Below are positions 7,022 to 60,193 of a stretch of 64,000 nt of DNA, piece by piece; the first letter of the stretch is position 1, and each line of letters starts with the position of its first letter. The notes under the pieces were generated by a model. The model was given only the letters and a program-made list of their open reading frames with translations. It was not told the DNA's origin and did no database searches. Source of the DNA: a bacterium (GTDB taxonomy: Bacteria; Methylomirabilota; Methylomirabilia; Methylomirabilales; 2-02-FULL-66-22); NCBI GenBank assembly GCA_029580855.1, contig JAKPQH010000146.1, positions 62,001 through 126,000 on the forward strand. The letters run 5' to 3'. The position numbers and the translations under genes were made by a program.

Positions 7022-7312
7022 ATGAAGAAGTTCAAGCCACTGCAGGACCGGATCCTGGTCAAGCGCCTGGAGGAGAAGGAAGTGAAGAAGGGCGGCATCA
7101 TCATCCCGGATACCGCCAAGGAGAAGCCCCAGGAGGGCGAGGTGCTCGCTGTGGGCCCGGGGAAGGTGACCGACGACGGGAAGCTCCAGCCCATGTCGGT
7201 GAAGGTGGGCGACAAGATCCTCTTCGGGAAGTACTCGGGGAGCGAGGTCAAGCTGGACGACGAGGAGCTGCTGATCATGCGGGAAGAGGATGTGCTCGGC
7301 ATCCTGCAGTAG
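7022..7312 (+). CDS. groES: Co-chaperonin GroES
   Basis: 96 aa [41 protein letters not shown]. Confidence 0.98.
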
Positions 7313-7370
7313 GCCTCGTGGCAACGGATTCCACGGAAATCCAACGCACAAACGAATCACCCACACGTAA

Positions 7371-9008
<1,638 letters not shown>

Positions 9009-45356: not shown

Positions 45357-46163
45357 TCAGCCGTTCACCAGCACGAACCGAGGAAAGTCCGCAACGGTCC
45401 CGTGGTGTTTCAACATCTTGGAGATACTCCCCAAAAACGTGCGGGCCAGGGCGAGGATCGCTTTGCCAGGGCCGCGCGTCACGCCCCGTGTGGTGATGGG
45501 GCCCCTGCGCTCGGTGGCGTGCGCGTGGTGCACCCGCGGGACGATCCCGACGTAGGCCGCGCGCGTCCCCTCGCTGGGAAAGTCGGCGATGTCCCCGATC
45601 ATGGCGAGCCGGATGCTCGCCCCCACGGCCCCGAGGCCTGGGATGCGGGTGAGGTTCTCCCCCCCTGGCAGGCGCGGTCCCGGCTCCCGCAACAGCCCTG
45701 CGCGTTTCTGGATGCGCGCGTTCACGTGCCGGCTCTCCCCCAGGCTGTCCAGCTCCCGCCGATCGAGCTCGGGGACGGGGGCTGTCCGACCCGCAGCCCA
45801 GCCCTTCTCGCTCCCCAGGCTCTCCTTGCGGAGGAGGATCCCCCGGGCCGCCCGCTCGGCCGTCAGCCGCCCCTCGGGCCGGAGCCCCGTGGCGAGAACC
45901 GCCGCCGGCCCCGTCGCGTCCTGCTCATCGGTCTTCTTCATCGCGCGGCTGATCACCCCGCACTGGTGGGGGGTGACGACCACGACCCGACAGCCGCGGG
46001 CCTTTACGGCCACTGCATCAGTCGCGCGCCCCGGCTTGGCAAAGGCCGCCAGCCTCCGGCTCGCCCATTCCCGACGCTCCCCGCTGCCGTCCGCCTCGCG
46101 CGTGGAGACCGTGACGCAGTTCCGGGGCCGATCGCCGCCCCGGTCCCGGGTCTCGCGCTTCAT
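45357..46163 (-). pseudogene. IS110-family transposase remnant
   Basis: CRVVVVTPHQCGVISRAMKKTDEQDA and IPGLGAVGASIRLAMIGDIADFPSEGTRAAYVGIVPR match IS110 layout, but N-terminal DEDD region is eroded and the C-terminus is short. Confidence 0.6.
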
Positions 46164-46897
46164 CGTCGTTCCTCCTGTCTGGGGTGACGATGAAGTCGAC
46201 ATGCTCTTCGGCGGTCCCCAGGCTCCTCTCCCCGGTGCGCGCCCGCCTTGGGGCGGCCCTTAGGGTGGCGCCCCGGTTCCCGGGCTGCCTACTCTCCGGG
46301 GTCGACGCCTCCCGTCGCCCCTGCAGCCTGTCACCTGTCTCCTCCATCCGTTTCCGGCTGGCGTATCACCGCCGACGCCCCTCATTCATACCATCTCCTT
46401 TCGGGTTCCGGGCGGGCGCGGGTTGTGTTCTCGTGGGTGGAGTAAATCTCGTGAAGCGTTCCTCGTTCGGCTCTGTCACTATTATTTCAAACTGGGCGTT
46501 AGAGCAAGGAAAAGCGTAGCCCGTGGCAAAAGGGCACGGAAACCCGACCCGACCGGAACCGTGCGAAGATCAAGTCCAGACCGGGATACTTGCAAGGCGG
46601 AAAACCGTCGCCTCGGCCGGGGGCCGCACAACCGCTGCCTGTCGTGTCGCGTCGGATGGTCCGACTCGCCGGTCTCCGCCTCCGCCTCAGCCCCTCGCGC
46701 CACGGAGCTGCCGGGCGAGGCGTTTGTCGTGAAGCGGCGAGTGGCCCGTTCCGGGCAACGCACCTTTGGTGGAAGTGGCTGTACGTCCGGCGATGCGTAC
46801 GGAAACCGCGGAGACCTGGGTCCGACAGGCCGACTCCCGGTGCGGCGCCCGTGAGCCGGATTGATGCGACGAGGAGGATTCCGGGGCGCGCCTCGTT

Positions 46898-48074: not shown

Positions 48075-48500
48075 CTACCGTCGCGACAGGTGCAATGTCC
48101 AATCGAGGGTCAAGAGCGGCACGACAGGCTTCATTGACTCGAAAGCTGCGTCGCAATGGATGAGGACCGCCTGGTGATTGATGGCCACCGTCGCGATGAG
48201 GCAGTCCGCCGCGGTCGGCGTGATGCCTTCCCGCCGCAACCGCGCCGCAAGATTCCACGCCTGCTTCCACCACGAGACCTCGAACGGGAGACGGACGATC
48301 GGAGCAAACCATTGCAGCATGGACTCCTTGCGCTCGGTCGTCCGCAAACCCGTCATGAGCTCCATCTGTATAGCTGTCAATTCAAGCATCTGGTTGACCG
48401 CCGGATCCGAAGCAAGGAATTCATCAACGGTCCGGACGGCGCGACATCTCGCGGCTGTGGCGCGCACGCAACAGACGACGAACGGGAGCCCGGAAATCAC
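48075..48500 (-). CDS. PIN-domain protein, N-terminally atypical
   Basis: GTG start at 48500 overlaps the ATPase stop (GTGA); VDEFLASDPAVNQMLELTAIQMELMTGLRTTERKESMLQWFAPIVRLP...TPTAADCLIATVAINHQAVLIHCD is VapC-like, but the first PIN Asp (xxDTS/N) is missing. Confidence 0.6.
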   Translation of the reverse strand: MISGLPFVVCCVRATAARCRAVRTVDEFLASDPAVNQMLELTAIQMELMTGLRTTERKESMLQWFAPIVRLPFEVSWWKQAWNLAARLRREGITPTAADCLIATVAINHQAVLIHCDAAFESMKPVVPLLTLDWTLHLSRR

Positions 48501-51262
48501 TCCACGCTTACGTTTCCCCCTAGACCCAGATCGTCCAGCGACTGACGAATGTCCTTTTCCAGATTGGCGGCTTGGTCCTGGGTTACAGTCACCGACAGAT
48601 CGATACCGATGCGCACGTCCGTTCCCGCGCGCAGCTTCGGCAGGATGCGGGTGCCGAGGCGATTCCAGAGTTCCAGCGGGATCTGGCCGCGAATCTGGAG
48701 CGTGTGGGTCGCTGTGTCGGAAACGGGTCCAGACATTGGGCCTGGCGATGAGCCGGGCCCGACCGGCGTCGGCGCGGGTGGCGGTTCCACTATGGGACCG
48801 ACGGGCGGTTCTACGACGGCGCCGGTCTTCAAGGCTTGAGCCGTCGCTTTGGTCAACAGAAAGACCTTGGCCTCGAAGGCGATCTCGTCCGGGGATACCA
48901 ATTCCTTGAACCACACACGGTCGTAGGTGCCGTCCGGGCGGTCGCCGGAGGCCAGACCGAAATCGCCGCGACTGACGAACTCGACGATTTTGCCTCTCAG
49001 GATCGCGTCGGGATCCATAAGCCGGGTGAGTGCGCCGTTGAGGAAGCTCTGCCGCAGGCTCGCGAGCGGCCACGCCCCGGACTCCTTGAGCGCCGGCGGC
49101 CAGTTGCGCTCCAGATAGCTCGCGCCGACGGACTCGTTGAGCAGCGCCTCGGCCTTGAGTGCAGCGATTACCCGCCCGCACAGGGTCTCGCCGCTGGAGG
49201 AATGTCCCGCGCCGAGGTCGATCACCTTGAGTCCGTCCGCCTCGCGCGCGTCGGCCACGACCGCAAAACGGTAGCCGCCCCACACCTCGTCCTTGGCCGT
49301 CTCTTCCGCGTCCTTCAGTTCGGCCAAAAGATCCGCCCGATCGCTCTTCTCGAACTCGCCGCCCAGCGTCCCGTCGGCGACTTCGCGCGCCACCCGTTTC
49401 CACGCCAGCCACAGCTCGACCTTCTCGCGCAGGTCGCGGCCGGGCTTCTTCAGACACCAGACCAGCGCCCCCGGATAGAGCCGTCGCGACCTACCCCGCT
49501 GGCGCGTCCACTCCACCACCTGGGCGCGCAGCGCGCCGCCACCGGACCACTCCATCTCCGGCCCGGCCACGACCAAGGCGAGCTTGGGCCGATCCGGGAT
49601 CTCCGCCGGGTCATCTTTGAGCATCTCCACCGGGATGCGCGCCCCCCGCCGAAACTCGTCCTCGACCAGCTTCCGCAGCGCGGGCTTGACCTCCGTCTCC
49701 GCATCGAGCGACGCGCGGCGGTCGCTGACCACCTTTTTCATGGTCGGCTGGTAGCCGATCCGGAAACCGTCCGGGCCCACCTTCCGAACGAAGTAGGCGC
49801 GGTCCTCCAGCGCGAAGGCGGCCGTGTCGATGGAGGTCGTGTCCAACTCGGGCTCGCCGAGGGCAAAGCGCAGCTCCGGGAGGTGCGCCACCTTGTCCGT
49901 CTGGCCCCCCGAGGACTCGAAGAGGATGGCCGATCCGACCCGCCGGTGGATGTCTCGGAGGGGGCCTTTGGTGTCGGCGTCGAGCGCCTTCGCGTGCGCC
50001 TGCTCGCCCGCGAGGTCGGCGTCGAGCGCGGCGACCAGCCGCGACTCGCCGAGCTGGCCGAGAACTACGCTGCGAAACCCCGGCTCGTTCAGCGGGGCGG
50101 AGCCCAGCGTGATGAGCGGCTCGGTGCGGGCCTTGCGGAACGCGTCCTGGGCGGCGATGGAGATCCACTGGGCCAGCATGGCCAACGTGCCCCGGGTCTG
50201 CTGGTACTGCGGGAGCGCCTGCCACTTGCGCTGGAAGACGGAGAGCGTCCCGGGATGGAACGGGTAGCAGGTCTCGAAGCGGCGCTGGAGGAACTCGCGT
50301 GCCTTGGCCTCGGTCGCGGCCGTATCCACCGCCGTCCACTCCGGCGGGAGCTGCGCGCGTCGCTCGAAACACCAGTCGCCGAACGCTTTGGCGACGTTCC
50401 TCCGGATCTTCTCGCTCCCCAGATCCTGGAAGAGCCGCCGCCGGATGACCTCGCTGATCTCCGTCTCGTCGTTGACAAGCAACGGCTTGGCGACGGCGCC
50501 CACGATTTTCACGATCTTGTCTTGCCATTCCAGGTCCCAGCCGGTCATCTCCACCTGGCTGCGCGGGAGGCTGACGACCGCCGACCGGAACCTGGTGCCG
50601 ACAAAGCCGCGCACGATGTTGTGCAGGAACGCGTGCATGGATTCCGCGAACCGCCGATGCCGGTTGAAGAAGTTCAGTAATTCGTCGAAGAGCAAGAGGA
50701 CGGGCCCATTGGCCAACCCGATGAGGCGGTTGAGGGTCTCGGTGCCGGGCGGCGCCTCCTTCGCCGCCGGCCCGAGGGCCTTCACGCCCTCGTCGCCGCC
50801 AAGTTGTCGGGCGATGTCGATCCAGGGCGTCTCGCGAAGCGGCTGGGGGTCCCAGGCGTTGCCGACGAACACCGCCACCCGGGCGGCCGGGACCGCGCCG
50901 AGCTCCGCCTCGCGGAGCAGGGCCGCCACTCCGGGCCACGCGGCCGCCGCCGGACCGCCGTTGGCCAGGTGCCAGAGCGTCGTCAGCATGTGCGTCTTCC
51001 CGCCGCCCATCTGTGTGACCAGGGTCTGAACCGGCGCGGTGTTCTGCGTCTCGCCCGCCAGGCGCCGCAACACCAACGCGGAATTGTCGCGCAGCGCCCG
51101 CGTGAAACAGGTGCGCGCGAAGAACTGGTCGGGCGTCCGGTAGTCCTCCGGGGCCGTCCCCGCGACGACCTGTTCGAGCGCGATGGCGAACTCGTCCGGG
51201 TTGAACGACCGGCCCTCGCGGACTTCCTTGCGCGGCGTGGCGATCCTGTACCAGGGATCCAT
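48497..51262 (-). CDS. DUF499 family AAA ATPase (defence-associated)
   Basis: QTLVTQMGGGKTHMLTTLWHL (Walker A), VLLLFDELLNF (Walker B). Confidence 0.85.
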   Translation of the reverse strand: MDPWYRIATPRKEVREGRSFNPDEFAIALEQVVAGTAPEDYRTPDQFFARTCFTRALRDNSALVLRRLAGETQNTAPVQTLVTQMGGGKTHMLTTLWHLANGGPAAAAWPGVAALLREAELGAVPAARVAVFVGNAWDPQPLRETPWIDIARQLGGDEGVKALGPAAKEAPPGTETLNRLIGLANGPVLLLFDELLNFFNRHRRFAESMHAFLHNIVRGFVGTRFRSAVVSLPRSQVEMTGWDLEWQDKIVKIVGAVAKPLLVNDETEISEVIRRRLFQDLGSEKIRRNVAKAFGDWCFERRAQLPPEWTAVDTAATEAKAREFLQRRFETCYPFHPGTLSVFQRKWQALPQYQQTRGTLAMLAQWISIAAQDAFRKARTEPLITLGSAPLNEPGFRSVVLGQLGESRLVAALDADLAGEQAHAKALDADTKGPLRDIHRRVGSAILFESSGGQTDKVAHLPELRFALGEPELDTTSIDTAAFALEDRAYFVRKVGPDGFRIGYQPTMKKVVSDRRASLDAETEVKPALRKLVEDEFRRGARIPVEMLKDDPAEIPDRPKLALVVAGPEMEWSGGGALRAQVVEWTRQRGRSRRLYPGALVWCLKKPGRDLREKVELWLAWKRVAREVADGTLGGEFEKSDRADLLAELKDAEETAKDEVWGGYRFAVVADAREADGLKVIDLGAGHSSSGETLCGRVIAALKAEALLNESVGASYLERNWPPALKESGAWPLASLRQSFLNGALTRLMDPDAILRGKIVEFVSRGDFGLASGDRPDGTYDRVWFKELVSPDEIAFEAKVFLLTKATAQALKTGAVVEPPVGPIVEPPPAPTPVGPGSSPGPMSGPVSDTATHTLQIRGQIPLELWNRLGTRILPKLRAGTDVRIGIDLSVTVTQDQAANLEKDIRQSLDDLGLGGNVSVE

Positions 51263-51878: not shown

Positions 51879-51958
51879 AATCGTCCCCCTTGTGACGCAG
51901 CCTCGTGATCAACGAACCGAACGAATGTTGCCAATTATTCGTCACCTTTGGAATGCCC

Positions 51959-54900
51959 TTATTTGGGCACAGCCAAGAGCATCGCGTCAAGCAGTCGCTT
52001 TTCCTCAGAGCCCTGAGGGTACAACGCCGATAACGCATTTGCTAGACGCAGGAAGTCCGGGCCGCGGTCCTGTTCGGCCTTGAGGAGTGCCCGCAGGGCG
52101 TTGGTGCGGCCGCCGCCCTGGAGCAGCATGGCGGCGTGGACCCGATCGAGGGTCGTGGCCTCCTTTGCACCGCTGAGGCGCGGAGTACGCAGAGACTCCT
52201 CCTCTGGATTAGCTATGCGCTTAGCCCTGTGGCCTCTGCGTCTCTGCGGTGAATCCTCCCCAACCGTTGGGAAGAGTGCGAGCTGCGAACGTACCCCGAA
52301 TGCGGCGTCCTCTTCCAACTTGGTCGCGACGGCCTGTGCTCCATCCTCACCGAAGAGTTGCCTGGCGCGCTCGGCAACGGACAGGAGCCTTACGATGCCC
52401 TTCTTGGTCTCAATCACGCGGCCTTCCCATTTGGGAAGCTCGATGCCGAGCGGCTGTGCAAAGCGGCGCACCACGTCGAACACAAGAGAGAAGCCCTTCC
52501 ACCGCTGAGGCGCAGAGGACGCAGAGTCCTCGTCCTCTTCTGAATCAGGTTCGGGTTCCTCCTCTGCACTCTCTGCGTCTCTGCGGTGATCGTCCTCGTT
52601 CGTGGCCTGCAGCGTCCACAGAAAGAGCGCCGTGAGCCGCGCGTCCTCCTCCACGGCGCCTGCCGCGCCGTTACGGGCCTTGGCCTCGGCGGTACCGAGC
52701 ACCTGCGCGAGCGCGTTCCGGCCCACGACTTCCCAGACCTTCTCCAGATATTCGGCGAGCGCGACCTCGCGCCCCTCGGCCGTCTCGACCTTCGCGTATC
52801 GGCTGAAAATCTCGAGCGCCGGGCCGATGCAAGCGAAGACAAGATCCGCGCCGCGCACCCCTTCGCCCTGCAGGCGTTCCATCCAGTCACCCACACGTTT
52901 CGGCAGCTCGCGCAGGACAACGGCCCAGTCACCAATTCCGGCATCCGCCACGCGTGGGCGGCACACCAGGTGAACACTCGTTGCTAGCGCGGCGGACTCG
53001 CGGGCGCGCAGACGCGACAGCATCTCAGTAGCGATAGGCCAAGAGCCGGTGATGGTCCAACCGCCCCGGATCAGGCCGGAAAGGAGCGCCTCCCAGCCTT
53101 CTGTGGTCTTGTGGGCGAAGACGACCGCCCCGACGCCATCTTCGTGGAGCACGCGGCGGCTCTCGGCGAAGGCTTTGGCCATCGTCTCCTCGAACCAGGT
53201 GCGGTCCTTCACTCGATCGTTTTCCTGTTTGGTTTCGTCCTGCACGGCCTCGCGCGCCTTGGGTGTGAGCGGATTTGCGGGATCAAACGGATCACACAAT
53301 AGATGGTGACCCGATAGTGTCCGCTTGAGCCAGACGAGGAAGAAGTCCGAAAGGTCGGCGTAGGGCACCGCGTCGTAGTAGGGCGGGTCGGTGAACCACA
53401 CCTGCGCCGCTTGATCGGGAAGAGGGTGCCCGCGCGCATCAGCTCCCTGCACTTGCCCTGACTGAATTGCGTCCTGGGTCCAGGCTGACAACGCATCAAC
53501 CATCCTCATTGTGTCTGTTACACGGTCTTCCCAGCTTCCGGTCGACCGCGAGAGTGCAACCGCTTCGCCGAAATCCCAGGACATCGGCAAAGCCTGACGC
53601 GCGAATACATGCTCCACTTTCTCCTGATCAGCTTGCGGTCGCCAGGTCGCAAGCACCGCGTTTCTCTCTACCACGCCGCTCAAAACAAGCCCCAGCACTT
53701 CGGGGAGATCAGAGTTACTCTGTTGCCCGACTGCGTCGCCCAAGGTCAGCATTGCCACCTTCTGCCTCGCCGTGAATAGGTCGCCCCACTGGCGCATGCC
53801 GTAGCGTTGCACGCTGAACGCACGACCGGCCCCGGAGCCTCCACCAGCGGGAGTCGGCTCATCCGGCACCGGGCAGAGGCCCTGCTTCCCGCCGCGCTCC
53901 CACTGCGCCAGCAGCTTCGCAACGCGAGCCTGCGCCTTGCGCACAGCCTCGTAGTCGCGCTCGGTCGGCAGCCGGTAGTGCCGCCCCGTCTCGCCGGGTT
54001 GGAGGGTCACAACGGCCAGCATCCGCGCCCCGCCCGTGCGCCGACCTTTGGCGTCGAAAACCACGTCGGCCCCACCGCGCTGTCCGGCAAGTTGGACTCG
54101 CACCCGCTCCGGCGGGAGGACTGCGCCGCAGCAGACGCACGTCGCCTTGGCGCGCGTCACCGTGCCGGCAGGCACGTCCTTCTCCGTCTTCGGCTCGAAA
54201 ATCTCGAACTCGACGGTGGCACAGGCATCCTGCCTGTGCCCGGGCGCCGGCGTTCTCAGGTGAAGCCAAGGGTATCCCTCCGGCTCTTTGGCCAGACCCT
54301 TCTTCACCGGATTTTGCCGGACATACTCCCTCTTCTCTTCCCATTCCGCCTCATGACGAATGATATGGTCAAAGCTCTCGTCGAGCCACACGGAGCCGCG
54401 CCGCCTCAATGCCCGGTTGATCTCCTTCGCGGAAAAACCCTTGATACTGTGAAGGATGTCTCCGAGGGGGGAGCTATCGATCACCCTGAAAATCGCGTGA
54501 GCATGATCCGCCATTACGACTGCTGCATCCAGGTCGATCCGCTTCCCGTCCCAGTGCCTCATCGCCGCCAACATCACTCCCCTGGCTTCCTCGGATAGAC
54601 TGACCCCTTTACGACAGCGAAAGGTCACGAAATATGTGGCCTGCGGGGCTTGCAGGTGAGGCAGGTTCCGTTTCTGAACGCTCAGGTCGGGTGACTTCCA
54701 GGGATTCACAGGCTGGAAGCCTGTGCCATTGGGAGTGGCCTGAACAACTTTGAGCCGCAGCGCCCGCTTGCGATTCGCCTTCTTGCACAGCCAGAACGAA
54801 CGGACGAGCGGAATCTCCGCGCCGCAGTTCGGCGACTCGCAGCGCACCGTGCGTGCCCAGAGATACGCGATGGGGGTCGCGCCGTCCGGGTCCTTCGGGT

Positions 54901-55543
54901 AAAGGTCCGCCAGCTCCTTCTCCGCCTCCTCCTTGATCTTCCTGCCAACTCTTCGGAGTTCATCCGCCAATGATTCTGCGCCCTCCGCGCCTCTGCGGTG
55001 CGCTTCTCGCGGGATATCCTCCAGCATCACTTTGAGAATCAGGCACGCGACTGGATTGAGATCGCTCGCAAAGGCTTCGCAGCCGACGCGTAGCGCCTCC
55101 AGCGGGATCGAACCACCCCCGGCGAAGGGGTCAACGACCAAAGGAGTTTCCTCGGGGTGCGCGGCCTTCACCAGGCCACGGCCCACTCTGAGATAGAGCG
55201 GGTCGGACGCGACATCCCAGTTGGCGAAATCTCCAATGAACGAGAGCAGCGACCGCCGCAACTCTTCATCCGTCGTCCCTGGCCGCGTCCAGGTTGTCAT
55301 CGCCTCCGAAAGCAGCTCTCGCGCCTTCGCCTTGAATTCGACGGGGCAGAGGGAATCGCCTGGATCGGGCAAGAGCAAAGCAAGCAGCATCGCCCGACAA
55401 GCTGCCAGCGGCCGCCGCGCCCACCAGAGGTGCAGGGTCGAGGGGTGCCCATGCCGGATGGACTTCTCCCGCGCCGCGTGCTTTGACACCACGGCGATCG
55501 GGAAGTCCACCTCGGCGAGCCGCTTGCATTCCTTCGGAATCAT
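51959..55543 (-). CDS. DUF1156 family DNA methyltransferase, with embedded in-frame elements
   Basis: [84 protein letters not shown]. Contains a RAYT-like domain at residues ~272-443 and palindromic inserts. Confidence 0.88.
52168..52251. repeat. Palindromic element (CACCGCAGAG family), translated in frame in the methyltransferase
   Basis: Arms CACCGCTGAGGCGCGGAG... and ...CTCTGCGTCTCTGCGGTG; encodes [28 protein letters not shown]. Confidence 0.78.
52500..52588. repeat. Palindromic element (CACCGCAGAG family), translated in frame in the methyltransferase
   Basis: Arms CACCGCTGAGGCGCAGAGGACGCAGAG / CTCTGCACTCTCTGCGTCTCTGCGGTG; encodes [30 protein letters not shown]. Confidence 0.82.
54217..54728 (-). 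mobile_element. RAYT (REP-associated Y1/IS200-like tyrosine transposase) element flanked by inverted REPs, read in frame within the methyltransferase
   Basis: TGGCACAGG...CCTGTGCCA ends. REP palindromes GGCACAGGCA-TCC-TGCCTGTGCC (54218-54240) and CACAGGCT-GGA-AGCCTGTG (54707-54725). Protein [12 protein letters not shown]...[13 protein letters not shown]...[33 protein letters not shown]. Confidence 0.85.
54971..55000. repeat. Half-copy of the CACCGCAGAG palindromic element in the methyltransferase
   Basis: TGATTCTGCGCCCTCCGCGCCTCTGCGGTG; encodes [10 protein letters not shown]. No clear second arm. Confidence 0.55.
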
Positions 55544-55663
55544 GAGGTTTCCCTGACCAAGCGTTTTAGACAGGCAATGGCGCCCCGCAGACTTTCCGAA
55601 CGCGCGGCTGCCACGTTGGGACGCCAGCGCGTCTACATGGGCGAGGGGACGTTGTCACCTTAA

Positions 55664-56251
55664 TCACTTTATCTCGCTTCCCGCTCGCATGCCGGTTCGC
55701 GATCCCAGCCGTTTCACCCGGTAGACGGGCCGCGCCTCCTCGACCTTGAACCCGATGGAGCGTCGCGTCCTCTCCGGCGGTGCCATGAGCTGGCGGATGG
55801 CATCGAAGACGGCGCGAAATTGGGCGTCGTACCGCTTTTCAAGTTCTACCAGTTTCCGAGCCAGGTCCTCATGCGATGCAAGGATGCGGCGCAGCCGGAC
55901 GAACGCGCGCATGATTTCGATATTGACACGGATGGCTTGCGGACTGTTCAGGATGCTGGAGAGCATGGCGACGCCTTGTTCGGTGAAGGCGTATGGCAGC
56001 GCGCGACGGAGACCGCCCCAACTTGAAGTCACAAATTGTGACTTCAAGTTGCCGAACTCATCGCGCGAGAGCTGGAACATGAAGTCGTCGGGGAAGCGCG
56101 CCGCGTTGCGCTTGACGGCCTGCACCAGCACCTTGGGTTGGACGCCATACAATTCTGCCAGATGTGGGCTGAGCGTCACTCGCTGGCCGCGAAGAACAAA
56201 GATCCTTGTCTCGACTCTCGCAGCGAGATTCGCCGCTAGGGCTTTACTCAT
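55664..56251 (-). CDS. ORF6N domain-containing protein
   Basis: [86 protein letters not shown]. Confidence 0.88.
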
Positions 56252-56448
56252 GCGCCGGCCTCCCGAGGACGATCGAGGGCATTGCGACCCCTTGCTCGGT
56301 GAGCGCGTAGGGCAGAAACGGCGAAAACCGGAGCGTCCTGAAGTGATCACAAACTGTGATCACCCCGCCCACCACCGGAGGCAGCGTACGGTGGGACCGC
56401 ATGCGCACTCCTGCCTGGCGAATTCCCTCTGCGCGAATCGTCCGGCCG
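56249..56448 (-). pseudogene. ORF6N fragment (partial duplicate)
   Basis: Minus strand ...[41 protein letters not shown], parallel to the [17 protein letters not shown] segment of the adjacent intact gene. Confidence 0.65.
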
Positions 56449-59400
56449 TCAATCTGCGTCCTGCTCCATCGGACAACTACCCGGCTCTTCCCGCACTCGC
56501 ATAGGCTCGCGCGCCGCATCCACACTGAGCCAGTAGTGATCCACCTTCCTGACCTCGTGCCACGAGAGGCTCGCAGGATCACGATAGAGGTTGACGCGCG
56601 GATGGCCTCCACAATTTGTCACGACGTAGAGCCAGTAACAATCCCGCCGATCCTCGGCCACGCGGCGTTCGTTGGGAGTGAGAAGAATAGTTCCTGTTTC
56701 CGCACCGAGCCCCTTGACCTCGATGAGGCGCAGCTCACCGGAGGATAGATCGAGGCTCGTGACGTCGTAGCCGAGGTTCTTCTCATGAACGTCGTACACC
56801 TGGCGGCCCTGGGCCCGCTCGTAATCCATTACCGTCTGCATGGCGATCGCTTCGGTCTCCGGGTCCGACTGGAGGCGGCGCACTTCCGGGGCTTCCCGTT
56901 CCGGGTGCGGCAGGACAAGCACGCTGGTAAGGCGCGTGACAGCCTGGAGCGAGAGCCCGCGCTGCCGCTCCAGCTCCTGCCGGCGGCGGTCACGGCGGGC
57001 GAGCAACTCCGCATGGCGGCTCTCGGCGACGGCAAGCCGCCCTTCGGCCCCCTGGATCTTCCGCTCCACGTCCAGGGAGGCGCGGCCGATCTCCTCATCC
57101 GCCCGCTGGAGGAGTTCCGTCAGCGACACTTCCACGTGCGCGGCGATCCGCTCTACCTCGGCCAGCCGCTCCTTGCGCGTTTCGTCGAGGAAGGCGCTCA
57201 GGACCGTCTGGTGGAGCCACTCCACCGCCTCGGGCGCCGAGGCTACCGCGGGGAGGCTCGCGGGCGTGGCGGCCGGCGTGAAGTTCCCCAGGATGCCGGG
57301 CTCCACAAGATGGTATTCACCGCAGAGGCGCGGAGTTCGCTGAGCTTCAATAATGTTCTTCTCTGCGCCCTCTGTGCCTCCGCGGTGAGTCCCGATCTCC
57401 ACGGCGAAGAGGCGCTCGTGGATCGTGTTGCCCAGGCCGTCCACGACTCGGGCGCGGTAGAAATCCATCCGCGCCGGCTGCTCGTGGGCGAGGGAGTAGT
57501 AGACGGCGCCGCTCGTGAAGGGCTCGGCCGCACGACCGCTTGTGTGGCGGCGAACCGCCTCGAACAGCGGGTGGCCTGGTGTGACCCATTCGAGGGTGTG
57601 CTTTTCCGCGGTCTCCCGCTCCGTCGAGCAGCGGGGGTATCGGACGGCCAGCGCGGGGAGGCGCCAGTCCGGTTCCCGCTCATATTTTCGCAGAGCGGTC
57701 GGCGTCCGGCCCGGGTCGAAGGCGTGCGGGAGGCTCGGTACGGGTTTCAGGTCGAGGGTCGCGTAGGGGGCGGCATCGCGGAGGAACCGGGCGATGGTCT
57801 CGGGGACGACGCGGCGCTCCTGCGCCAGGGCCCGCCGCTCCACCAACATGGCCAGGTTCAGCTTCTTGGAGGCGAGGCCCTCCAGGGCGTTCTGGCAAAT
57901 GGCGCGGAACTGGCCCTCATCCACGCGGCGGAGCAGGCGATCCTCCAGGTCGGCGTCGCCGAGCTTCCCCGCGTAATAATCCCGGAGGACCCGCTCGACA
58001 TGCGCGGAGGGCAAGACCTCGCCCACGACGTTGAAAACGGCGTCGTCGTCCAGGGCGTCCCGGATCTCCTGGAGTTTCTCCAGGAGGCGCTGGAGGACCT
58101 TGCCCTCGATGGTGTTGGTCGCCACGAAGTTGAAAATGAGGCAATCCTCGACCTGGCCGTACCGGTGGATGCGGCCCATCCGCTGCTCCAGCCGGTTTGG
58201 GTTCCAGGGGATGTCGTAGTTGACGAGGATGTGGCAGACCTGGAGGTTGATGCCCTCCCCGGCCGCTTCGGTGGCCACGAGGATCTGAATCCCGCCCTCG
58301 CGGAACTGCTGCTCGGCGTGGAGCCGGGTGCCAGGATCATTCCGCGAGCCGGCCTTCATCCCGCCGTGGATACACCCGACGGTGAAACCCCAGCTCTTGA
58401 GCCGCTCCAAGAGGTAGTCCAGCGTGTCCTTGAATTCGGTGAAGATCAGGAGCCGCTTCGTCGGGTGGTCGAAGAAGCCTTCCTCCTGGAGGAGCGCCTT
58501 GAGGCGGGAGAGCTTGGCCTCGGCCCCGGCCTCTTCTGCCGCCTTGGCCTTCTCGGCGAGGGCGCGGAGGGCCTTGATCTCCTCCTGGACCTCCTGGGCG
58601 TTCCCGGCCAGGGTGATCGCTTCGATGACCGATTCCAGCCGCTCCCGCTCGGCCTCCTCCATCTCCTCCAGCTCTTCTATGTCGGGAAGGTCGGGAGGCG
58701 CCGTGCGTGCTATTTCCTGGGCGCGTTTCAGCCCTTCGGCGAGGCGCCTGGCGCGGTTCTCCAGGCTGTGGCGGAGGGCGTGGGTGCTCGAGGCCAGCCG
58801 GCGCTGGTAAAGGGCCATGAGGAAGCCGACGGCCAAGGCGCGGGGGTCGTCCCCCTGGGCGGCGGCCTTGGCGCTCTGCTGCTTCACGAAGCGGGTGACC
58901 TCGCGGTAAAGGTCGAACTCCGCATGGTCGATCTGGAACTCCACCGTCTTCGGGATCCGCTTGGTGAAGATCTTTTTGGCCGCCCAGGTCCCGTCGGTTT
59001 GCCGCTCTGGGAAGTAGACCATGGCCTCCTTGGTCCGGCGGAGGTAGAACGGAGCCCGGTTCCGCTCCATGGCCTGACGGATGGATCGGATGTCCGCATA
59101 GGCGTCGGCGTCGAGGAGCTGGAGGAAGAGGCTGAAGTTTTCTGGATCGCCCTTGTGGGGGGTGGCGGTGAGCAGGAGAAGATGATCGGCGGTTTCCCGG
59201 AGTAGCTCCCCCAGGCGGTAGCGGAGGCTCTTGTGTGATTCGTCCGAAGCGGACATCCGGTGCGCTTCGTCCACGATGACGAGGTCCCAGCGGACCTGGC
59301 GGAGGCCCGGGAGGATATCCTGGCGCTTGGCGAGGTCGAGGGAGGTGATGACGCGCTTCTGCTCCAGCCACTGGTTGACGCCGAACTGCTCCTTGATGTC

Positions 59401-59958
59401 CTGCCCCTTCAGGACGACGAACTGGGCGGTGAACTTCTCCTTCAGCTCGCGCTGCCACTGGAAGGCCAGGTTGGCCGGGCACACGATGAGAATCCGCTCG
59501 GCGAGGCCGCGCAGCTCCAGCTCGCGCAGGAGGAGGCCCGCCATGATGGTCTTGCCTGCCCCGGCGTCATCGGTGAGGAGAAAGCGGACCCGGGCGAGTT
59601 TCAGGAGGTAGTCATAGACGGCTTCCAGTTGGTGCGGCAGAGGATCAACCCGGGAGATCGAGAGGCCGAAGTAGGGATCGAACTCGTACGCGATCCCCAG
59701 GGCGTAGGCCTGGAGGCCCAGGCGCAAGAGTGTGCCGTCCCCGGTGAACGTGTGAGTGAGACCGCGGACCCGGAGCTGGGCGAGGTCTTGTGCGGTGAGT
59801 ATGACGCTGCGGAACTTCTCGGTCTGGACCCCGACCAGGCCGACCGTCCAACGATCCGAACCGGCCGGCCGGATGGTTTCGACGCGCATGGGCTCGTTGA
59901 AGAGCGCGCCCTCGACGATCTGACCGGGGTCCAGGGGGAGCGATGGAGAGGGGTTCAT
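56449..59958 (-). CDS. SNF2/DEAD-like helicase with C-terminal DUF3883 domain
   Basis: LLTDDAGAGKTIMAGLLLREL, VIVDEAHRMS, EQRMGRIHRYGQ; C-terminal EKNLGYDVTSLDLSSGELRLIEVKG. Confidence 0.92.
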   Translation of the reverse strand: MNPSPSLPLDPGQIVEGALFNEPMRVETIRPAGSDRWTVGLVGVQTEKFRSVILTAQDLAQLRVRGLTHTFTGDGTLLRLGLQAYALGIAYEFDPYFGLSISRVDPLPHQLEAVYDYLLKLARVRFLLTDDAGAGKTIMAGLLLRELELRGLAERILIVCPANLAFQWQRELKEKFTAQFVVLKGQDIKEQFGVNQWLEQKRVITSLDLAKRQDILPGLRQVRWDLVIVDEAHRMSASDESHKSLRYRLGELLRETADHLLLLTATPHKGDPENFSLFLQLLDADAYADIRSIRQAMERNRAPFYLRRTKEAMVYFPERQTDGTWAAKKIFTKRIPKTVEFQIDHAEFDLYREVTRFVKQQSAKAAAQGDDPRALAVGFLMALYQRRLASSTHALRHSLENRARRLAEGLKRAQEIARTAPPDLPDIEELEEMEEAERERLESVIEAITLAGNAQEVQEEIKALRALAEKAKAAEEAGAEAKLSRLKALLQEEGFFDHPTKRLLIFTEFKDTLDYLLERLKSWGFTVGCIHGGMKAGSRNDPGTRLHAEQQFREGGIQILVATEAAGEGINLQVCHILVNYDIPWNPNRLEQRMGRIHRYGQVEDCLIFNFVATNTIEGKVLQRLLEKLQEIRDALDDDAVFNVVGEVLPSAHVERVLRDYYAGKLGDADLEDRLLRRVDEGQFRAICQNALEGLASKKLNLAMLVERRALAQERRVVPETIARFLRDAAPYATLDLKPVPSLPHAFDPGRTPTALRKYEREPDWRLPALAVRYPRCSTERETAEKHTLEWVTPGHPLFEAVRRHTSGRAAEPFTSGAVYYSLAHEQPARMDFYRARVVDGLGNTIHERLFAVEIGTHRGGTEGAEKNIIEAQRTPRLCGEYHLVEPGILGNFTPAATPASLPAVASAPEAVEWLHQTVLSAFLDETRKERLAEVERIAAHVEVSLTELLQRADEEIGRASLDVERKIQGAEGRLAVAESRHAELLARRDRRRQELERQRGLSLQAVTRLTSVLVLPHPEREAPEVRRLQSDPETEAIAMQTVMDYERAQGRQVYDVHEKNLGYDVTSLDLSSGELRLIEVKGLGAETGTILLTPNERRVAEDRRDCYWLYVVTNCGGHPRVNLYRDPASLSWHEVRKVDHYWLSVDAAREPMRVREEPGSCPMEQDAD
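57318..57387. repeat. Palindromic element (CACCGCAGAG family), translated in frame in the helicase
   Basis: CACCGCAGAGGCGCGGAGTTCGC ... CTCTGCGCCCTCTGTGCCTCCGCGGTG; encodes HRGGTEGAEKNIIEAQRTPRLCGE. Confidence 0.8.
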
Positions 59959-60038
59959 CTCGCGACCACCCCTCCGGCAAGAAAACCATGCAAACGATAA
60001 ACGCCGATCCCGTTCACGAGAATCGGCGCGTCAATCAT
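59955..60038 (-). CDS. Candidate 27-aa small ORF (B) coupled to the helicase
   Basis: MIDAPILVNGIGVYRLHGFLAGGVVAR*; stop overlaps helicase start (ATGA). Confidence 0.4.
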   Translation of the reverse strand: MIDAPILVNGIGVYRLHGFLAGGVVAR

Positions 60039-60193
60039 CCTTGGCTCCCTCCGGACGAATCCGTTCCATCCCCTCCCGTCGTGTCCGGGGTCCCTCTGAT
60101 GTCCAGTTGCTTATACCAGAAGGCAAGGGCTGCTTCAAGCCGGTACTTGTCCAGAATCCGCACGCGAAGGATCGAAAAATCGCCCGCTCTCAC
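60035..60193 (-). CDS. Candidate 52-aa small ORF (A) at head of the defence operon
   Basis: GTG start; MRAGDFSILRVRILDKYRLEAALAFWYKQLDIRGTPDTTGGDGTDSSGGSQG*; stop overlaps ORF B start (ATGA). Confidence 0.45.
   Translation of the reverse strand: MRAGDFSILRVRILDKYRLEAALAFWYKQLDIRGTPDTTGGDGTDSSGGSQG

Follow-up and report, generated by a model that had tools for sequence, protein, structure and literature searches.

A palindrome in the helicase gene of an Hma defence operon as a probable MITE-like member of a mobile repeat family linked to the predicted nuclease GxxExxY

Background

How does a palindromic element come to lie, in frame, in a large helicase gene of a bacterial defence operon, and has its presence there anything to do with defence? 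The gene in question (minus strand, positions 56449 to 59958 of the window, i.e. the whole stretch of 64,000 nucleotides of DNA analysed here) encodes a SNF2-type helicase with a C-terminal NOV_C/DUF3883 domain, identified with Pfam and by PADLOC as HmaA (1.6e-173). On the same strand lie HmaB, a DUF1156 adenine methyltransferase with in-frame inserts (51959-55543; Pfam, PADLOC and alignment), and HmaC, a DUF499 AAA+ ATPase (48497-51262; Pfam and PADLOC), so that the three genes of an Hma system are present together. Hma has been described as a Type-1 DUF499 BREX-related system (PMC12839542), which the window operon resembles in its helicase, DUF1156 methyltransferase and DUF499 ATPase, and from which it differs in that its HmaA and HmaB hold several in-frame mobile insertions. 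A small minus-strand ORF between HmaB and HmaA (55664-56350) matches the PADLOC candidate PDC-S05 and is outside the standard Hma gene set. An IS110-family transposase is encoded near the operon, at positions 45357-46202.

Palindromic elements of Rickettsia were reportedly described by Ogata et al. in 2000. According to PMC2229807 and PMC10969869, these Rickettsia palindromic elements (RPEs) occur in frame in protein genes. Intragenic REPs have been reported in other species, many of them in DNA repair genes (PMC3733652).

Methods

The census of the window's own genome covered 5.08 Mb in 255 contigs, and arms in it were counted with the degenerate pattern ACCRCNRAGRCRCNRAG. The scan for GxxExxY genes was non-circular: only protein cores were aligned, the query contained no residues of CAGAG repeats, and inverted repeats were sought around the hits afterwards. 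Inverted repeats were accepted at a score of at least 12 within 150/200 bp, and same-size shifted positions in the same loci served as controls.

Results

The initial annotation described a 70-bp in-frame palindrome in the helicase gene, and both its sequence and its coordinates (57318-57387, minus strand, HmaA residues about 858-881) proved exact. The palindrome is imperfect, with an 18-bp arm CACCGCAGAGGCGCGGAG (57318-57335) and an imperfectly inverted arm CACCGCGGAGGCACAGAG (57370-57387). Its translation, HRGGTEGAEKNIIEAQRTPRLCGE, is flanked by LFAVEIG and YHLVEPGILGNF, as had been stated. Folded as single-stranded DNA, the element reaches -19.1 kcal/mol (z = -4.2 versus shuffles). The window contains seven arm matches, where 0.2-0.4 would be expected and 100 shuffles gave at most 3, which excludes chance. 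The annotation was also right that, within the window, the elements are confined to a single defence operon and, there, to two of its large genes. All other copies are in HmaB, where the arm scan and alignment located, on the minus strand, an 84-bp element in the C-terminal linker (52168-52251), an 89-bp arm pair enclosing an acidic linker that is also present in orthologues (52500-52588) and a half element made of a single arm (about 54975-55000). An Rfam scan of positions 51900-60100 gave no family match.

A clean indel, which the initial annotation had proposed to look for in helicase homologues, was found. At the 70-78% identity at which HmaA was compared, five orthologues of the same phylum are without the insertion, whereas in G004, a congener, the site is occupied as in the window, by an element with an alignable interior and nearly identical flanks; neither an exact empty site nor a transposition event was seen. 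In the HmaA tree the window's genome (G000) clusters with the insert-free orthologues, apart from G004, so that loss or (local) recombination must be assumed for the insertion that the two have in common. A PDB sequence search covered only the helicase core of HmaA, so that no solved structure was available on which to locate the insert.

Alignment of HmaB revealed several sites where different orthologues hold different inserts. After residue 268, G000 has a RAYT, G004 a DUF559 nuclease and five others no insert. The RAYT insertion (54215-54739, minus strand, in-frame residues 269-443) is without counterpart in six orthologues and matches the NCBIfam REP-associated tyrosine transposase NF047646 (86 bits, cut-off 80). 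It is complete, leaves the host ORF open, and is flanked at both ends by GGCACAGGC-type, REP-like palindromes, CACAGGCTGGAAGCCTGTGCC at 54707-54727 and GGCACAGGCATCCTGCCTGTGCC at 54218-54240. In G004 the DUF559 nuclease found at this same site lies among GGGAGAGGG repeats (locus L034, about 7170-7640 of G004:C61), and HmaB has a frameshift further along, beyond the insert.

The census of the window's own genome showed the CAGAG form to be confined to the Hma operon, and the degenerate pattern detected 10 arms, of which 7 are in the operon. Of the remaining three, one belongs to a single MITE (contig C144), another forms the end of a GxxExxY element with an internal deletion (C207), and the third, inside a nuo-like gene (C100), is probably a chance match. 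Among the congeners the arms are scattered, with 2 to 59 per genome (59 in G005, 42 in G004, 38 in G003 and 25 in G002), and the copies examined adjoin ordinary genes. The CAGAG copies of G004, for example, lie in HmaA and also beside genes which, as read from their translations, are der, prepilin-peptidase-like, VWA-domain-like and TctC-like. Nuclease-bearing genomes of other phyla contain up to 146-168 arms, and 33 of 38 sampled copies had no frame open across the locus. The genome-wide mapping suggested by the initial annotation has thus upheld part of its view of the distribution, namely in-frame palindromes in two big genes of a defence operon, clumped in their own genome, but not the link to defence as such; enrichment in defence loci was rejected on the congener census, the superfamily being dispersed and adjacent to ordinary genes.

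The clumping is better accounted for by a horizontal move of the Hma operon, which most likely brought its element copies along. This reading is based on the HmaA tree and on the operon neighbours, none of which is common to any of eight orthologous loci. The GC content (65.3% for the operon versus 66.7%) is uninformative, as it gives no sign of a foreign origin.

A GxxExxY gene (PF13366 and TIGR04256, over cut-off) adjoins der in G004 and is bracketed by CACCGCAGAGGCGCAGAGGACGCAGAG and CCTCGGCGTCCTCTGCGCCTTCGCGGTA, which are CAGAG arms. In the non-circular scan, inverted repeats flanked GxxExxY in 55 of 79 loci, compared with 6 of 403 shifted controls (Fisher 4e-46). These loci came from Bacteroidota, Proteobacteria, Acidobacteria, Chloroflexi, Planctomycetes, Verrucomicrobia, Cyanobacteria and others, and nearly all the repeats were arrays of ACC-RC-NRAG units, an arm family like that of the window. 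Independent sets, from the window's phylum and from one gammaproteobacterial family, gave 25/32 loci versus 0/64 controls. The gammaproteobacterial loci mostly had arms on both sides, in some cases with units spaced differently, so that they escape the strict pattern.

It seems that several arm subfamilies are each served by nucleases of their own. The two are not always matched, since nearly all of the 59 arms of G005 are of the CCAAG type and its assembled GxxExxY genes have other arms or none that is recognisable. At loci L056, L057, L059, L060, L061, L064 and L065, related arms enclose other GxxExxY genes; they consist of CAGAT/AGATT units, which in translation give ITQI or MNTDE tails.

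The window's own genome holds, in C207 (locus L069), an internally deleted, truncated GxxExxY gene between an intact TTAAACCGCCAAGACGCCAAG and its near-inverse, which is an intermediate between a full-length element and a MITE. A nuclease gene flanked by CAGAG arms was not found in this genome, whose cognate enzyme is consequently absent, lost or unassembled. On mobile replicons GxxExxY was nearly missing: none was detected in 50,697 phage records and 5 in 72,556 plasmid records, and these plasmids provided no polymorphic empty site. Its behaviour is therefore that of a chromosomal repeat system and differs from that of the usual transposons on mobile replicons.

Arm number was then related to the presence of the nuclease in 199 genomes of one gammaproteobacterial family. 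At least five arms occurred in seven genomes, all with the nuclease (7/14 with it versus 0/185 without; p = 1.6e-9), a correlation among genomes that are not independent samples and whose kinship was left uncorrected. None of the 185 nuclease-negative genomes exceeded four arms. Arm counts reached 146 in a set of 26 genomes with the nuclease, versus 0-2 for reversed-pattern controls; arms of the strict pattern were absent from 6 of these 26 and from some of the 14, several of which have arms of other spacing.

MITEs taken from several genomes and phyla mostly measure 62-80 bp and end in TTCACC..GGTGAA, as does the window copy, or in TTGAACC, with arms made of two to three NRCRNRAG units. As expected for a MITE, the HmaA element is short (70 bp), with 18-bp terminal inverted repeats and no coding capacity, belongs to a dispersed set with copies of similar size elsewhere, and has its termini in common with a gene-bearing element, the GxxExxY genes being bracketed by the same arms. 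This arm-GxxExxY-arm arrangement would be the autonomous form. A search for target site duplications in 43 copies found no direct repeat above chance, and for that reason we call the element MITE-like and not a classical MITE.

In GxxExxY, E25, D65, K77 and Q89 are invariant and E75 is nearly so. The AlphaFold2 model has a pLDDT of 95.6, and its nearest Foldseek matches are the Cas4-like SSO0001 and lambda exonuclease, at TM values of about 0.5-0.6 and with weak E-values (best 1.4e-3); a PDB sequence search with GxxExxY gave no match. D65, E75-x-K77, E25 and Q89 form, together with the fold, the core of a PD-(D/E)XK enzyme, and GxxExxY is accordingly a predicted nuclease of that fold.

Discussion

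The arm-gene-arm structure recurs in many phyla, arm number depends on the nuclease in the one family analysed, and a deletion intermediate is present. We consider it probable, at roughly 0.7, that the window palindrome belongs, as a MITE-like member without a nuclease gene, to a very widespread family of mobile palindromes linked to GxxExxY, that the predicted nuclease drives the spread of this family, and that the window copies are imported fossils. A full-length member consists of one GxxExxY gene between two arms ending in TTCACC..GGTGAA. The nuclease may cut or process the arms, as hairpins, and thereby spread them without duplicating the target, acting in trans on the MITEs. In an earlier host, the window copies would have entered HmaA and HmaB at protein linkers; with continued selection on the Hma genes, only in-frame, stop-free insertions would have been retained, and the operon, copies included, would later have been transferred into the present genome. 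We propose no defence role for the inserted peptide, which is tolerated in a linker.

The same arm-gene-arm structure would arise if GxxExxY were a parasite, i.e. a homing-type nuclease inserting into the loops of older palindromes spread by something else. GIY-YIG, a typical homing fold, is also found beside palindromes in HmaB, and we regard this account as unlikely though worth weighing. A mere rider should be unnecessary for the palindrome population, but not one of the 199 genomes was rich in elements and free of the nuclease, and this absence of any arm-rich population without it in the family tested is why we favour the nuclease as engine. It appears considerably less probable that the CAGAG elements are ordinary REPs moved by an IS200-type RAYT such as that of HmaB. 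Such pairs are established (PMC2817692, PMC3116915) and the RAYT is inserted in a gene that itself has CAGAG elements, but it is flanked by a different palindrome of the GGCACAGGC type, and arms of the CAGAG type bracket GxxExxY genes. That the palindrome is specific to defence, retained in the Hma genes for a regulatory or protein function, is very improbable indeed: although all CAGAG copies of the own genome are in the Hma operon and HmaA and HmaB orthologues repeatedly hold inserts, five HmaA orthologues do without the element, congeners and members of other phyla have the family throughout their genomes, and 33 of 38 sampled copies lie outside any frame open across the locus.

The family of mobile palindromes linked to GxxExxY has likenesses to two known systems. 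Like RPEs, as presented in the available parts of PMC2229807 and PMC10969869, the HmaA element is a palindrome in frame in a protein gene and absent from orthologues; RPEs, too, are short, are tolerated as extra peptides and form several families. In the same parts, RPEs are given as about 105-150 bp long, in Rickettsia and Wolbachia, and no mobilising enzyme is named, whereas the window family occurs in many phyla, mostly outside an open frame in our sample, and includes full-length members that carry a gene. REP/REPIN-RAYT systems (PMC2817692, PMC3116915, PMC8266576) are similar in that dispersed, non-autonomous palindromes accompany a gene for a small nuclease that has these palindromes on either side, with no target duplication seen. 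However, the enzyme of the window family has a PD-(D/E)XK fold and is not an HUH/Y1 tyrosine transposase, and its arms are long, multi-unit inverted repeats without a GTAG tag. Membership in REP/REPIN-RAYT was rejected, as the arms bracket GxxExxY instead of a Y1 (HUH) gene, the RAYT has another palindrome, and the ends are TTCACC..GGTGAA or TTGAACC in place of a GTAG/CGTC-tagged short hairpin.

The GxxExxY gene lies inside the full-length elements, and its family name (TIGR04256, PF13366) conveys neither function nor association with repeats. No link of GxxExxY, PDDEXK_3 or DUF559 with palindromic repeats was found in the literature searched, whose coverage leaves aside subscription papers and preprints, nor was an enzyme for CAGAG-type palindromes. 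Relative to that literature the pairing of a palindrome superfamily with a PD-(D/E)XK protein is new, and REP/RAYT provides a model for it.

DUF559 genes with palindromes of their own are, as far as the sequences go, a second such pairing of nuclease and palindrome. In the window's phylum, inverted repeats accompany DUF559 genes in 19 of 30 loci (L237-L266) versus 1 of 60 controls, and these palindromes, CCCTCTCCC, CCCCCTTTNNAAAGGGGG or CCCCCTTT, are quite unlike the NRCRNRAG arms in sequence. We incline slightly towards the broader view that GxxExxY proteins are the mobilising nucleases of a palindrome superfamily that is among the most common in bacteria, comparable to REP/RAYT on a PD-(D/E)XK fold. 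The same solution would have arisen repeatedly, in Vsr-like DUF559 with CCCTCTCCC palindromes and perhaps in GIY-YIG; all could ride in frame in large genes, among which those of Hma would often serve as landing sites.

Palindromes of the CAGAG type occur in genomes of many phyla, and a nuclease that mobilises the arms would be a new class of engine, so far unrecognised, for repeats of a type that is among the most common in bacteria. It would give a function to GxxExxY and possibly to DUF559, both annotated without a role, and would explain the extra peptides built into large defence proteins. The candidate is directly testable, being a single gene for 125 residues whose fold and catalytic residues are defined and whose inverted repeats match.

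As to GIY-YIG, the eight genes sampled are too small a number for a palindrome pairing. In HmaB of genome G028 an in-frame GIY-YIG domain lies beside a CCTGCCGGCAGG palindrome (L030; G028:C28:32654-32881), another is in frame in HmaA of G004 (L034; G004:C61:74208-74435), and both inserts adjoin palindromes of the CCTGCC type.
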